Part shown: piece by piece, positions 1,545-42,643 of the stretch
Layout of the letters: each line of letters opens with the position of its first letter
Position numbering within the stretch: position 1 is the stretch's first letter
NCBI GenBank assembly: GCA_902522825.1
Contig: CABYXE010000001.1
Coordinates: 248,001-312,000, forward strand
Direction of reading: 5' to 3'
Source: an uncultured SAR86 cluster bacterium
GTDB taxonomy: Bacteria; Pseudomonadota; Gammaproteobacteria; Magnimaribacterales; AG-339-G14
DNA: 64,000 bases
Made by a program: the position numbers and the translations under genes
The notes under the pieces: generated by a model
Told to the model about the DNA's origin: nothing
The model's input: only the letters and a program-made list of their open reading frames with translations
The model's database searches: none

Positions 1545-3536
1545 CTAATTTGAACTCACCCAAATTGGTGAAGACCACGCTCTCTCTTGAATTATTTTAT
1601 CAATTCCTTCTCTAGGCGCATAATTATTTTTAACAGCATCCCACGTTGACCACCTGCAAGTAGGATTTTCTAATACCCTCAAATAATAAAAGGTTTCAAT
1701 ATTGGGGTCATATTCTTCATCAACCCATGAAGTTTTGAGTTCACTTGCACCTTTATCTTGAGAAAATTCACAGGTATCTAAATTTACTGACGCATTATTT
1801 GAGGCACATAGTTTTGATACTGGATCTGGTTTAAGTCCGTCGGCACAAATCACGTCAATTAATTGCTCTTTAGTCTCTCTATCTTCTTCGCTGTAATAAC
1901 CTTTAATAATTTGAATTCTTTGAAGTGGTGCTCCATTTTTGTCTTTTTGGGCCCAAACAACGAAAGATGGTTTTTTTGTTTTAGGTAAAATTAAATCACC
2001 TCCCATAGCAACACCCGATTCATAAACTTTAGTTATGAGCTCGTCATCGTTTAAGTTTAAATTCAATAGATTATCGCCAGCAAAAAATCTTAACCTTATT
2101 CTAGTACCTGAAGTGGCATAAGTTTCCTTATTGGAAAGTGCTTCAAAAATTGAGTCTCTAGTATTGGCTTTTGCCCATACTGCTGCGAGACCTCCAACTG
2201 AATTAGAAATAACCTCGCTACCTGAATAGAAACCCTGGTCTTCCTCTTCAGTCATATCTAAGTTTTTCACCTCATCTGTTAAGAGTTCTTCAGGAATAGG
2301 AATTGATCCTCTTATCATGGGAGAAGTAAGAATAGCTGCTGTACCTGCGCTATCTGATTCTTGAAAAATATATGCGCCATTATGAGTATCTGTAGAACCT
2401 ATAAAGCCTATTTTGAAAGGATTTCCTCTTTCCTCATGCTCTAAAGCAAGCCCTCTTTGCAGTCCCTGTCTAACATAACTGCCATCTGGTTCAGAATAAG
2501 ATGTTCTTTTTCCTTTTCTAGAATTTACAATTTCAAAATCTGCCCACTTATCTTGTGGCGATAGCCGAGGATGAGTTTCAGATGTACCTTTTATTTGAGT
2601 AATTTCTACAATTGGTTCATTTCTCATCCTTTGATCAGAATAATCTTGGTCTATTGGACTTCCATCAAACTTATATTTTTTAAATACTTGGCCATTTGAA
2701 CCATTAGGATTATGAGGAATCGCTAAACTATCCAAGCCATTTGACCTAAGTCCGTCCATCCAATTCCACAACTCTTCTGGATTAATTGAATCGAACGAAG
2801 AAAAAGGTCTTTTAGGTGCCTTTGATGATTTAAAAATAACATTTCGATGATATGAGCCACTTTCTGGTTCTTGGCTTCTAACAGTCCACTCGTATGCATT
2901 AAAAGTAGTAAATTTTCCTGGGTCGTTATGTTCCTCGGCTGCTTCCATAATTTTTCTCCAAGCAGATAGGTGTTCTTCATGATCATAAGCTGCTGAGGCA
3001 AAAATAAAATTTTGAGCAAAAAAAGCTCTAATAAGATCTAAAATACTGCCTCGTTCTGAAGGAAATCCTCCATCACTTCCGCGGATAGTATTAAATAACA
3101 AAAATCTATCAAACGCTGATTCAGGGATCAAATTTTCAGGCCTATTAAGATTGTGAAAAGGCTTAGCTTTTGGATGCTTTCCAATATTTGAAGTTGGATC
3201 AGCCCATAAGCTTGCCATGCCTAGTAGGATGGCATGATCTGTTACCGCATAAAAATCCAATGGTTCTTCTAAAGTCATATCTCTAACACCATTAGAGATA
3301 GTTTCTCCCTTGGCAAATCTATAACTCATATCTGGCGTGACAGTAGTACCAAGCAGATAAGCATCGAAAGAGTATTTTGTATGAACATGCAAATCTCCAA
3401 AATAGAGATTTCTTTCTTCGTTTAGAGGAATATCTTTAATTTCAGCTTTAGAAGAAAAGTCTATTATTTGATCGTATTGTTTAGAGCATGCGCTCAAAAA
3501 TTGAATAATTACTAAAATTGATATTATTTTTTTCAC
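1545..3536 (-). CDS. DUF3604-family lipoprotein, probable PHP-like metal-dependent hydrolase
   Basis: This 663-residue protein has a lipoprotein signal peptide (hydrophobic stretch, then LSAC with the lipidated Cys at about residue 17). Soon after comes NLYFGDLHVHTKYS (HxH at 50 and 52), the metal-binding entry motif of PHP-type phosphoesterases found in DUF3604 proteins. Further metal-ligand candidates are the Asp/His in AVTDHAIL, IPHNPNGSNG and FIGSTDTHNG. DUF3604 proteins are common in marine gammaproteobacteria, but the substrate is unestablished. The start overlaps the recO stop by 4 bp and the stop lies 2 bp before acpS, so it is embedded in the era-recO-acpS operon where pdxJ often sits. 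Envelope location is inferred from the lipobox. Confidence 0.82.
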   Translation of the reverse strand: MKKIISILVIIQFLSACSKQYDQIIDFSSKAEIKDIPLNEERNLYFGDLHVHTKYSFDAYLLGTTVTPDMSYRFAKGETISNGVRDMTLEEPLDFYAVTDHAILLGMASLWADPTSNIGKHPKAKPFHNLNRPENLIPESAFDRFLLFNTIRGSDGGFPSERGSILDLIRAFFAQNFIFASAAYDHEEHLSAWRKIMEAAEEHNDPGKFTTFNAYEWTVRSQEPESGSYHRNVIFKSSKAPKRPFSSFDSINPEELWNWMDGLRSNGLDSLAIPHNPNGSNGQVFKKYKFDGSPIDQDYSDQRMRNEPIVEITQIKGTSETHPRLSPQDKWADFEIVNSRKGKRTSYSEPDGSYVRQGLQRGLALEHEERGNPFKIGFIGSTDTHNGAYIFQESDSAGTAAILTSPMIRGSIPIPEELLTDEVKNLDMTEEEDQGFYSGSEVISNSVGGLAAVWAKANTRDSIFEALSNKETYATSGTRIRLRFFAGDNLLNLNLNDDELITKVYESGVAMGGDLILPKTKKPSFVVWAQKDKNGAPLQRIQIIKGYYSEEDRETKEQLIDVICADGLKPDPVSKLCASNNASVNLDTCEFSQDKGASELKTSWVDEEYDPNIETFYYLRVLENPTCRWSTWDAVKNNYAPREGIDKIIQERAWSSPIWVSSN

Positions 3537-41326: not shown

Positions 41327-41716
41327 ATGTTAAAAAATGAATTTACTGTATTTGGTTACGAGATGGAAAAAGTTACAGTTGCTTTTGGTTTTTTCTTAGT
41401 ATTTTGGGGAGTGGCTGTTTCAATGATTGCTCAGAGTGATTCAATAACCTCTTACATACCATCTATATTAGGATTGCCATTAATTTTATTCGGGTATTTA
41501 ACCTTAAAGATTCCGTCAAGAAAAAAATTATTTATGCACCTTGTAGTGCTTTTTGGATTGATAATTTTTTTAGGAGGATTGGATGTCATTAGAAGTTATC
41601 CTGGAATATTTTCTAATTTTTGGGCTGATCTATCTAAACTCATGTTAGCTGTGACTGGTTTTATATATACATACTTAAATATAAAATCGTTTATTTATGC
41701 AAGAAAAGCTAATTAA
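41327..41716 (+). CDS. Small integral membrane protein, unrecognised (129 aa)
   Basis: The protein has four likely membrane segments (about 17-35, 45-62, 68-86 and 100-121) joined by short loops, with positive residues after spans 2 and 4. I cannot name the family. It follows the CBS protein by 58 bp, with its own TATAAT and AAAGAGG elements, and ends 3 bp from the convergent sodX. The clean topology, good ribosome site and codon use like its neighbours make it a real gene. Confidence 0.75.
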   Translation: MLKNEFTVFGYEMEKVTVAFGFFLVFWGVAVSMIAQSDSITSYIPSILGLPLILFGYLTLKIPSRKKLFMHLVVLFGLIIFLGGLDVIRSYPGIFSNFWADLSKLMLAVTGFIYTYLNIKSFIYARKAN

Positions 41717-41719
41717 CTC

Positions 41720-41983
41720 TTAGGAAACTACTTTTCCAAAAATATCTTGTTTTCTGTGCAGTTGATCGCAAACAGAGGAATGCAGCTTTTTATTGTCTCC
41801 TCTTAATATTATTAATCCTCTATTGAAACCTTCTATTCTTTTTATGACATACCCTAATTCAGGCATTTTTAATACTACGACATCGTCTTTAAAATAATTA
41901 GGAAAAGAATCAATTTCTACAATGTCCCCATCTTTGTATGTAGGATTCATGCTGCTGCCTTTGATTCTAAACTTTTCAGGCAT
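41720..41983 (-). CDS. sodX: Nickel-type superoxide dismutase maturation protease
   Basis: This 87-residue peptidase of the S26/S24 (signal peptidase-like) type has a Ser in IKGSSMNPTYKDGD (about Ser11), a Lys in YVIKRIEG (about 48), and the following RGDN box. There is no membrane anchor. It is adjacent to sodN, starting right after its stop, the standard sodN-sodX pairing. The enzyme is thought to cut the SodN propeptide so that the mature protein begins at the nickel-binding His. The context makes the call much firmer than the short sequence alone. Confidence 0.88.
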   Translation of the reverse strand: MPEKFRIKGSSMNPTYKDGDIVEIDSFPNYFKDDVVVLKMPELGYVIKRIEGFNRGLIILRGDNKKLHSSVCDQLHRKQDIFGKVVS

Positions 41984-42442
41984 CTAAAGTTTAGGAACTA
42001 CCATTTCTAGTGCAGGTGGATATGGTGCAGTAACTCTTGAGGTTTCAATATTTTTAGTTTTCCAAAAAATCTCACTAAAGTTATTTACAAGCTCAACTAA
42101 TTTTTCTGCATTTCCTCTTTCAAGACTTTGTTTGCACTTTGATCCCTGCATCATAATTGAATGGACCACTTCGTGAACATTAGGAAACGCTTCTATTTGA
42201 GGGCCTTTAAAATAGTCTCCCCATATAATCCTTGTCTCATCTTTAACAATGCGAGCCTGATTTTCTTTTTCTAAGGTTAGCCTTGATAGTTCTGAAGAGT
42301 CTTCGGGTTTTGAAGTATCGAGATTTTTCTCTTCAATTATGTCAATGATTCTTACTACAGTAAGAGCTGCAATTTGAATGACAATTGGATCATAGATTTT
42401 GCAAGGAATATCGCAATGAGCTGAAGCTTCTTTAATTTTCAT
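41984..42442 (-). CDS. sodN: Nickel superoxide dismutase
   Basis: SodN dismutes superoxide with a nickel ion bound by the processed N-terminus. The nickel hook HCDIPCKIYDP is visible; the family usually has HCDLPCGVYDP, so the Gly is Lys here. The His, both Cys and the Tyr are kept. A short propeptide (MKIKEASA) would be removed before His by SodX. The start at 42442 overlaps the stop of the upstream peptide in an ATGA; an alternative ATG at 42457 adds five residues. The helical-bundle part and the Trp-rich WGDYFKGPQ segment are typical. Confidence 0.92.
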   Translation of the reverse strand: MKIKEASAHCDIPCKIYDPIVIQIAALTVVRIIDIIEEKNLDTSKPEDSSELSRLTLEKENQARIVKDETRIIWGDYFKGPQIEAFPNVHEVVHSIMMQGSKCKQSLERGNAEKLVELVNNFSEIFWKTKNIETSRVTAPYPPALEMVVPKL

Positions 42443-42591
42443 TTTATTTTTCTCCATAGTGTTCTTACCAAAAGCACCATCATTGGAATCATTATAAACG
42501 CTGCTTCCAAGTGAAAATGAACTAAGTTATTTCCTGAGTGGGCAAAAAGAACACTTGGGAAAAGTAAAAACATACTGTAATTTTCTAACAT
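42439..42591 (-). CDS. Small His-containing membrane peptide coupled to sodN (50 aa), unrecognised
   Basis: A 50-codon frame starts MLENYSMFLLFPSVLFAHSG. A signal-like hydrophobic stretch ends at LFA, next to the segment HSGNNLVHFHLEAAF (three His), and a second span (IMIPMMVLLV) follows, then a basic end. The AHSG after a signal-like segment recalls the AHxGH start of HupE/UreJ nickel transporters, but the protein is far too short for one. The stop overlaps the sodN start. A TATAAT lies 6 bp before the ATG with no ribosome site, suggesting a leaderless transcript. All of this is inference. Confidence 0.55.
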   Translation of the reverse strand: MLENYSMFLLFPSVLFAHSGNNLVHFHLEAAFIMIPMMVLLVRTLWRKIK

Positions 42592-42614: not shown

Positions 42615-42643
42615 AAAAATAGGGGCTATTTGCCCCTATTTTT
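42615..42643 (-). terminator. Rho-independent terminator after groL
   Basis: A perfect 12-bp stem (42615-42626 with 42632-42643; GC-rich core AGGGGC/GCCCCT) with a 5-base loop lies 18 bp after the groL stop. On the minus strand it is followed by a run of T residues, as expected of an intrinsic terminator for groSL. The flanking A and T runs could also let it act in the other direction. Confidence 0.9.

Follow-up and report, generated by a model that had tools for sequence, protein, structure and literature searches.

What is encoded directly upstream of sodN in a SAR86 genome, and does it serve the nickel superoxide dismutase (Ni-SOD) that follows it? The question concerns a 50-aa minus-strand frame in the window, that is, the whole stretch of 64,000 nucleotides that was analysed, which belongs to genome G000 (1.11 Mb, 30 contigs). 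An earlier note had described this frame as a membrane peptide with a signal-like span and a second span, translationally coupled to sodN, and had suggested a role in nickel handling.

The mechanical ORF list and the sequence itself agreed with that description in position, strand and overlap. The frame 42439-42591 starts with ATG, ends with TGA and contains no internal in-frame stop, and its stop codon forms an ATGA overlap with the sodN start at 42442. The encoded peptide reads MLENYSMFLLFPSVLFA before and HSGNNLVHFHLEAAFIMIPMMVLLVRTLWRKIK after an Ala-His junction, written A/H below. In this SAR86 genome, the minus-strand order is groES, groL (both putative, named from sequence), a hairpin, the 50-aa frame, sodN and a sodX-like peptidase gene. 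The features are as follows.

42615..42643, minus strand: terminator-like hairpin separating groL from the peptide gene (one found against 0.8 expected by chance in the region)
42439..42591, minus strand: gene of the 50-aa peptide, stop codon included (ORF list; E 3.4e-17 with a profile built including the window sequence; dN/dS 0.43 against L023)
42541..42591, minus strand: signal-like hydrophobic stretch, residues 1-17, ending FA/H (from sequence; putatively cleaved)
42508..42540, minus strand: stub of residues 18-28 with H18, H25 and H27, predicted to face the periplasm and a putative metal site (sequence alignment)
42442..42510, minus strand: residues 28-49 as a membrane helix, with a short basic tail, RKIK (AlphaFold2, block pLDDT 87-90)
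41984..42442, minus strand: sodN, nickel superoxide dismutase, leader MKIKEASA followed by HCDIPC (PF09055, E 3e-43; TIGR02753 over its cut-off; start from relatives)
41720..41983, minus strand: sodX-like S24/S26 peptidase, abutting sodN (PF00717, E 8.8e-11; TIGR02754, E 3.8e-6, under its cut-off)

The identity of SodN is certain. Its start was placed at 42442 and not at 42457, the position given in the mechanical ORF list, because several relatives possess only the homologous start (L037 and L038, MKIEEALA-HCDIPC). Among the 114 unique loci that extend far enough past sodN, 113 have a sodX motif downstream of it. Upstream of the peptide gene, no promoter-like site was detected.

For comparison, 126 sodN loci were collected, comprising L001, 30 others, the best 80 of 274 matching the window SodN, and a further 15. 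A detector was applied that required a hydrophobic stretch, a small residue, His and a later hydrophobic helix, with the stop codon at most 150 nt before the HCD motif. Of 115 unique sodN loci, 94 gave an upstream hit, compared to 12 of 432 other ORF starts taken from these contigs as controls; the former value is no estimate for all SodN, as 80 loci were the best of 274 matches to the window SodN. When His was swapped for any other residue, at most 32 of the 115 loci were hit, the maximum being reached with Ser.

On inspection, three of the hits (L056, L096 and L102) proved to be larger proteins, leaving 91 one-helix peptides, while the peptides of L060 and L079 had been missed by the detector threshold and L059 was recognized as a fusion. 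After inspection, the 115 loci comprised 94 with a one-helix peptide, five with a multi-helix protein (L056, L077, L096, L102 and the fused L104) and 16 with neither. With SodN as the query, two plasmid records were retrieved, and the phage search returned none.

Conservation in the same gene order among relatives, one of the checks proposed beforehand, was found in most sodN-bearing genomes of the order. Of 199 SAR86-order genomes, 46 carried sodN and 153 did not. In the profile search (E ≤1.6e-6), a full-length peptide match adjoining sodN was obtained in 43 of the 46 sodN-positive genomes, and no full-length match in any of the 153 sodN-negative ones; some of these peptides had gone into the profile, which makes the positive count dependent on it but leaves the zero independent. 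Weak matches of the SAR86-type (A2) profile in 15 sodN-negative genomes (E 2.4e-4 to 0.01) were dropped before this count, as they showed partial profile coverage, frames of other length or an internal stop; several shared their frame with the HupE/UreJ-2 protein of the same genome.

The second proposed check, synonymous-site bias, gave a consistent result. Among 140 pairs with sodN dS <2, 99% of those with a non-zero pS had a pN lower than pS (median pN/pS 0.53), the pairs sharing history and hence not being independent. Between the window and L023, dN/dS was 0.43 for the peptide and 0.04 for sodN. The peptide gene is coding and under purifying selection, with a weaker constraint than that acting on SodN. 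The 50-aa frame was thus confirmed as a real member of a conserved, very divergent family.

Conservation was not without exceptions. The earlier note had named missing conservation or in-frame stops in relatives as evidence against the frame; this was not seen across the family, but it was seen in three genomes. In G001 and G005, two species of the window's genus, the DNA before sodN aligns with the peptide gene, with the start and the frame lost, and in G138 no peptide frame was found before sodN. Each of these genomes retains SodN together with a sodX-like frame. The remnants beside intact sodN indicate that the peptide is dispensable in some species, and the loss in two species suggests a conditional function, as would be expected of a scavenging aid. 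The decayed remnants of the two species are those of loci L031, L033, L034 and L115, where the flanks still align and sodN and sodX are intact.

A relation was observed between the peptide and the form of SodN. Ten of 369 gammaproteobacterial genomes carried sodN. Seven of these encode the HCD(I/V)PC type, six of them with the peptide (G000, G041, G336, G354, G464 and G482) and the seventh (G394) with a version in which Arg replaces the first His. The other three (G494, G538 and G559) encode an exported SodN, which has a signal sequence of its own and carries HCQ(I/V)PCGIYDD. In the G564 family, sodN was found in 16 of 144 genomes: 11 with the peptide, one with a fused peptide, one without it (L161) and three of the exported type. 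At the six exported-type loci examined, the peptide was found in none. In the loci examined, therefore, the peptide goes with SodX-processed SodN and not with the exported type, its presence tracking the form of SodN that the genome makes. Loci L153-L155 and L173-L175 encode this exported form, recognizable by its signal sequence and the HCQ(I/V)PCGIYDD start.

The junction between the two genes also differed between lineages. Among 42 unique SAR86 loci, the ATGA overlap was present in 24, another overlap in five and a gap of 0-15 nt in 13. Outside SAR86, the spacing to sodN varied, and the ATGA overlap was found once in 48 loci.

All family members share a common layout, consisting of a hydrophobic signal-like stretch, an A/H junction, two to five His within 15 residues, a single membrane helix and a basic tail. 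The window peptide shows each of these features and lies directly before a SodX-type sodN, which places it in the sodN-linked A/H peptide family as defined here, even though it lacks the Lys or Arg near the start that most relatives have. The A/H junction in the 91 unique peptides is fixed by the design of the detector; in all 91, two to five His fall within the first 15 mature residues, and the last 14 residues are net positive in 84. By the positive-inside rule, the basic tail would lie in the cytosol and the His stub in the periplasm. Of the two spans described earlier, only the second corresponds to a confident helix (residues 28-49) in the AlphaFold2 model, which contains little else and no strand (mean pLDDT 72); the first is the signal-like stretch.

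In 28 SAR86-type peptides, with a mean identity of 32%, the invariant residues were M1 and three His, arranged as H-x(4-8)-H-x-H. These correspond to H18, H25 and H27 of the window peptide, of which H18 was required by the detector and H25 and H27 were not. The 19 Alteromonas/Marinomonas-type (A1) peptides have the core AHPGHDHxHWxS...H, with H39, G41, H42 and H53 invariant. The predicted mature stubs are of two types, HSGNNLVHFHLE and HPGHDHSHW, and the two types of peptide were only weakly joined (hhalign probability 22%). His-poor versions also occur beside sodN, namely those of G394 and L106.

No Pfam or NCBIfam family matched the window peptide over cut-off. The resemblance to HupE/UreJ (PF04955) that had been suggested from the start of the mature chain did not extend to homology, which was rejected at the level tested, by Pfam and hhalign comparisons. 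PF04955 did not match the window peptide even with E values up to 10 admitted, no match was listed for the A2 members, and one of 19 A1 members matched at E 0.027; hhalign against a HupE set of 25 sequences from 32 loci gave a probability of 3%. The two share a signal stretch ending in A/H, a His-rich mature start and a position beside a nickel enzyme as membrane proteins. In contrast, HupE/UreJ is a full permease, whereas the peptide has one helix after the signal. The motif of HupE/UreJ in the first membrane segment is H-x5-[DE]-H; it was seen in the HupE sequences, whereas the window peptide has H-x6-H-x-H and no acidic residue.

Other small membrane proteins were compared as well. CbtB and CbiN/NikN are small membrane subunits that assist cobalt/nickel importers; neither the window peptide nor the A2 members had any of them among their listed matches, and for A1 they were absent from the 25 families shown out of 34. 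DUF6732 (PF20506) is similar in size (about 70 aa) and in having a signal-like start followed by a helix, and 14 of the 19 A1 members matched it weakly (best E 1.6e-5). All listed scores, up to 15.4 bits, were nevertheless under the curated cut-off of 27 bits, and the window peptide gave no match.

The anglerases Ang-1 and Ang-2, DUF4198 and DUF6702 are described as carrying a mature N-terminal His after a signal peptide, with membrane metal capture proposed (PMC12537917). The peptide would have the same mature start if cleaved at its A/H junction. The proteins of that kind, however, have folded beta-sandwich domains, with Ang-1/2 fused to HupE/UreJ-2, whereas the mature chain of the peptide comprises 33 residues with one helix and no strand. 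None of these comparisons placed the peptide in HupE, DUF6732 or the anglerases.

In the literature covered, the accessories described for Ni-SOD are the leader peptidase SodX and, in cyanobacteria, the transporter SodT, which lies beside sodN and sodX (PMC4284471, PMC10119275). SodT, of the UreH family, is the proposed nickel supplier to SodN in marine cyanobacteria (PMC4284471). It resembles the peptide in being a membrane protein encoded beside sodN and sodX, and differs in its six predicted helices (PMC4284471), against one confident helix in a chain of 50 aa. A description of such a peptide was not found in the titles and abstract openings of the open-access literature searched, so that it is provisionally regarded as undescribed.

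The place before sodN is taken by other proteins in some lineages. On a Novosphingobium plasmid (L206), a full-length HupE lies directly upstream of sodN (PF04955, E 8.3e-47). In alphaproteobacterial MAGs, multi-helix proteins of 126-151 aa precede sodN, with HupE scores just or well below threshold: E 1.2e-4 for L056 (22.1 against 23 bits), E 0.0033 for L077 and E 0.017 for L096. No HupE match was listed for the multi-helix neighbours of L102 and L104, and these alphaproteobacterial multi-helix proteins are possible homologs of HupE.

Two fusions were found, each a single observation from a MAG. In L059 (a Pseudomonadales MAG), peptide and SodN form one continuous frame, and the stretch from the helix to HCDIPC contains neither a stop nor an ATG, GTG or TTG. 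In L104 (MarineAlpha2_Bin1, 2575-3462), the reading frame of a multi-helix membrane protein likewise runs on into that of SodN, although sodN could have a start of its own at an in-frame TTG some 31 codons ahead of HCD. The fused sodN is the only one found in each genome, and both loci retain the A/HCD site and a sodX-like gene. No fusion of the L059 type was found in other members of the G564 family.

Short A/H peptides were also noted directly after the gene of the [NiFe]-hydrogenase large subunit (L131, 1504-1677; L133, 1501-1716). That of L133 is a one-helix N-terminal fragment of HupE_UreJ over the Pfam cut-off (E 6.5e-7), and that of L131 scored with DUF6732 below its cut-off. Together with the sodN loci, these cases indicate that small signal-plus-His membrane proteins recur beside nickel enzymes.

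The invariant His residues, the occurrence of HupE or HupE-like proteins in the same place in alphaproteobacteria and the one peptide-SodN fusion point to nickel. It is proposed, with about an even chance of being correct, that the peptide is a minimal nickel-capturing inner-membrane protein that would supply nascent cytosolic Ni-SOD. Of the accessory envisaged in the earlier note, the co-encoded membrane peptide is borne out by conservation, coding selection and phyletic and positional linkage, and its role in nickel handling is the best reading of indirect evidence.

Coding conservation, architecture, adjacency, the association with SodX-type SodN and one fusion to SodN were observed; the chemical steps added here (metal binding, transport and SodN loading) are inferred. 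The signal-like stretch would be exported and cut at A/H. The mature N-terminal His, offering a free amine and an imidazole, may then bind Ni2+ on the periplasmic face together with the further His, while one helix would cross the inner membrane and leave the basic tail in the cytosol. As an oligomer alone, or as a receptor for another permease (SAR86 HupE/UreJ-2), the peptide could raise the supply of nickel where SodN is made. Coupled translation would place apo-SodN by the tail, and SodX would then cleave the SodN leader at A/HCD.

Nickel supply is favoured by the co-occurrence with sodN, the excess of detector hits over controls, the fact that the invariant residues are His, and purifying selection. 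It is further favoured by the lack of the peptide at exported-type loci, the Novosphingobium HupE, the hydrogenase-linked peptides, the L059 fusion and the absence of any NicO or DsbD_2 match in 24 SAR86 genomes chosen from 200, DsbD_2 being taken by us as a Pfam proxy for UreH/SodT. Against it, SodN manages without the peptide in G001 and G005, which lost it, and in G138. A HupE_UreJ_2 protein was found in 23 of the 24 SAR86 genomes, sodN-positive and sodN-negative alike; SAR86 thus has a partner permease, and nickel could also enter by a route other than the peptide. The His-poor versions beside sodN, the inability of a one-helix protein to act as a permease alone and the failure to reach homology with HupE also speak against nickel supply.

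A more specific form of the proposal, which must be called doubtful, is a membrane-coupled hand-off. The one-helix His peptide or a HupE-like protein would carry nickel inward and pass it directly to the adjacent, co-translated SodN precursor, and SodX cleavage at A/HCD would free the loaded enzyme. In some lineages (L059, possibly L104), the membrane protein is physically fused to SodN.

Among the alternatives, a membrane tether or assembly factor is rather unlikely. Its basic cytosolic tail would dock the SodN precursor, SodX or both at the membrane and thereby coordinate folding, nickel loading and leader cleavage, and the His stub would be of minor importance. In agreement with such docking are the L059 fusion, in which the tail end is joined to SodN, the fusion of a larger membrane protein in L104, the ATGA overlap in most unique SAR86 loci and the association with SodX-type SodN only. 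The conserved residues, however, are the His on the predicted outer side and not the tail, which differs in length and sequence, and the spacing to sodN varies outside SAR86.

Handling of another metal, or protection of the envelope against metal stress (copper, zinc or cobalt), appears unlikely. The linkage to sodN would then reflect shared conditions such as iron limitation, under which the Ni-SOD of A. macleodii rises (PMC7190382), and N-terminal His sites are reported to bind copper too (PMC12537917). A general role in metal stress does not predict the absence of full-length matches from all sodN-negative SAR86 genomes, nor does this reading accord with HupE occupying the corresponding position in L206.

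A small regulator or sensor, which would perceive the metal or redox state of the envelope and tune SodN translation or stability through the coupling, is quite improbable. Small membrane regulators are common, and the start is coupled in most SAR86 loci, but no tail motif is conserved, the sequence is divergent apart from His, and the coupling is not kept outside SAR86. That the frame is non-functional, a chance frame or translational spacer before sodN, is very improbable despite its decay in two species of the same genus and its high divergence, given the detector, substitution and co-occurrence results, and for the window copy alone it is contradicted by the dN/dS against L023.

If the peptide supplies nickel, it would represent a third type of Ni-SOD accessory, present in SAR86 as well as in Alteromonas, Marinomonas, Pseudoalteromonas and related marine bacteria, in all of which peptides of the family were found. 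Its gene is small enough to escape gene callers, and the locus would then form a compact genetic and chemical system for the delivery of nickel to one enzyme in an ocean bacterium. Were the direct hand-off correct, the peptide would deliver nickel specifically to Ni-SOD and would rank among the smallest metal-uptake components known.

Two further neighbours of sodN were recorded. The 129-aa ORF at 41327-41716 on the plus strand encodes a membrane protein with no Pfam match over cut-off. It was considered as a partner and dropped: although homologs occur in the vicinity of many sodN loci, neither their strand nor their distance is constant. In the window's own family the gene is convergent with sodX, and in several SAR86 and gammaproteobacterial loci it lies directly 3' of sodX in the orientation of sodN. 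Upstream of sodN in L055, L078, L091, L098 and L103, and upstream of the peptide in L162, L163 and L166, a TPR-like protein of roughly 140-170 aa is encoded, so named by eye.
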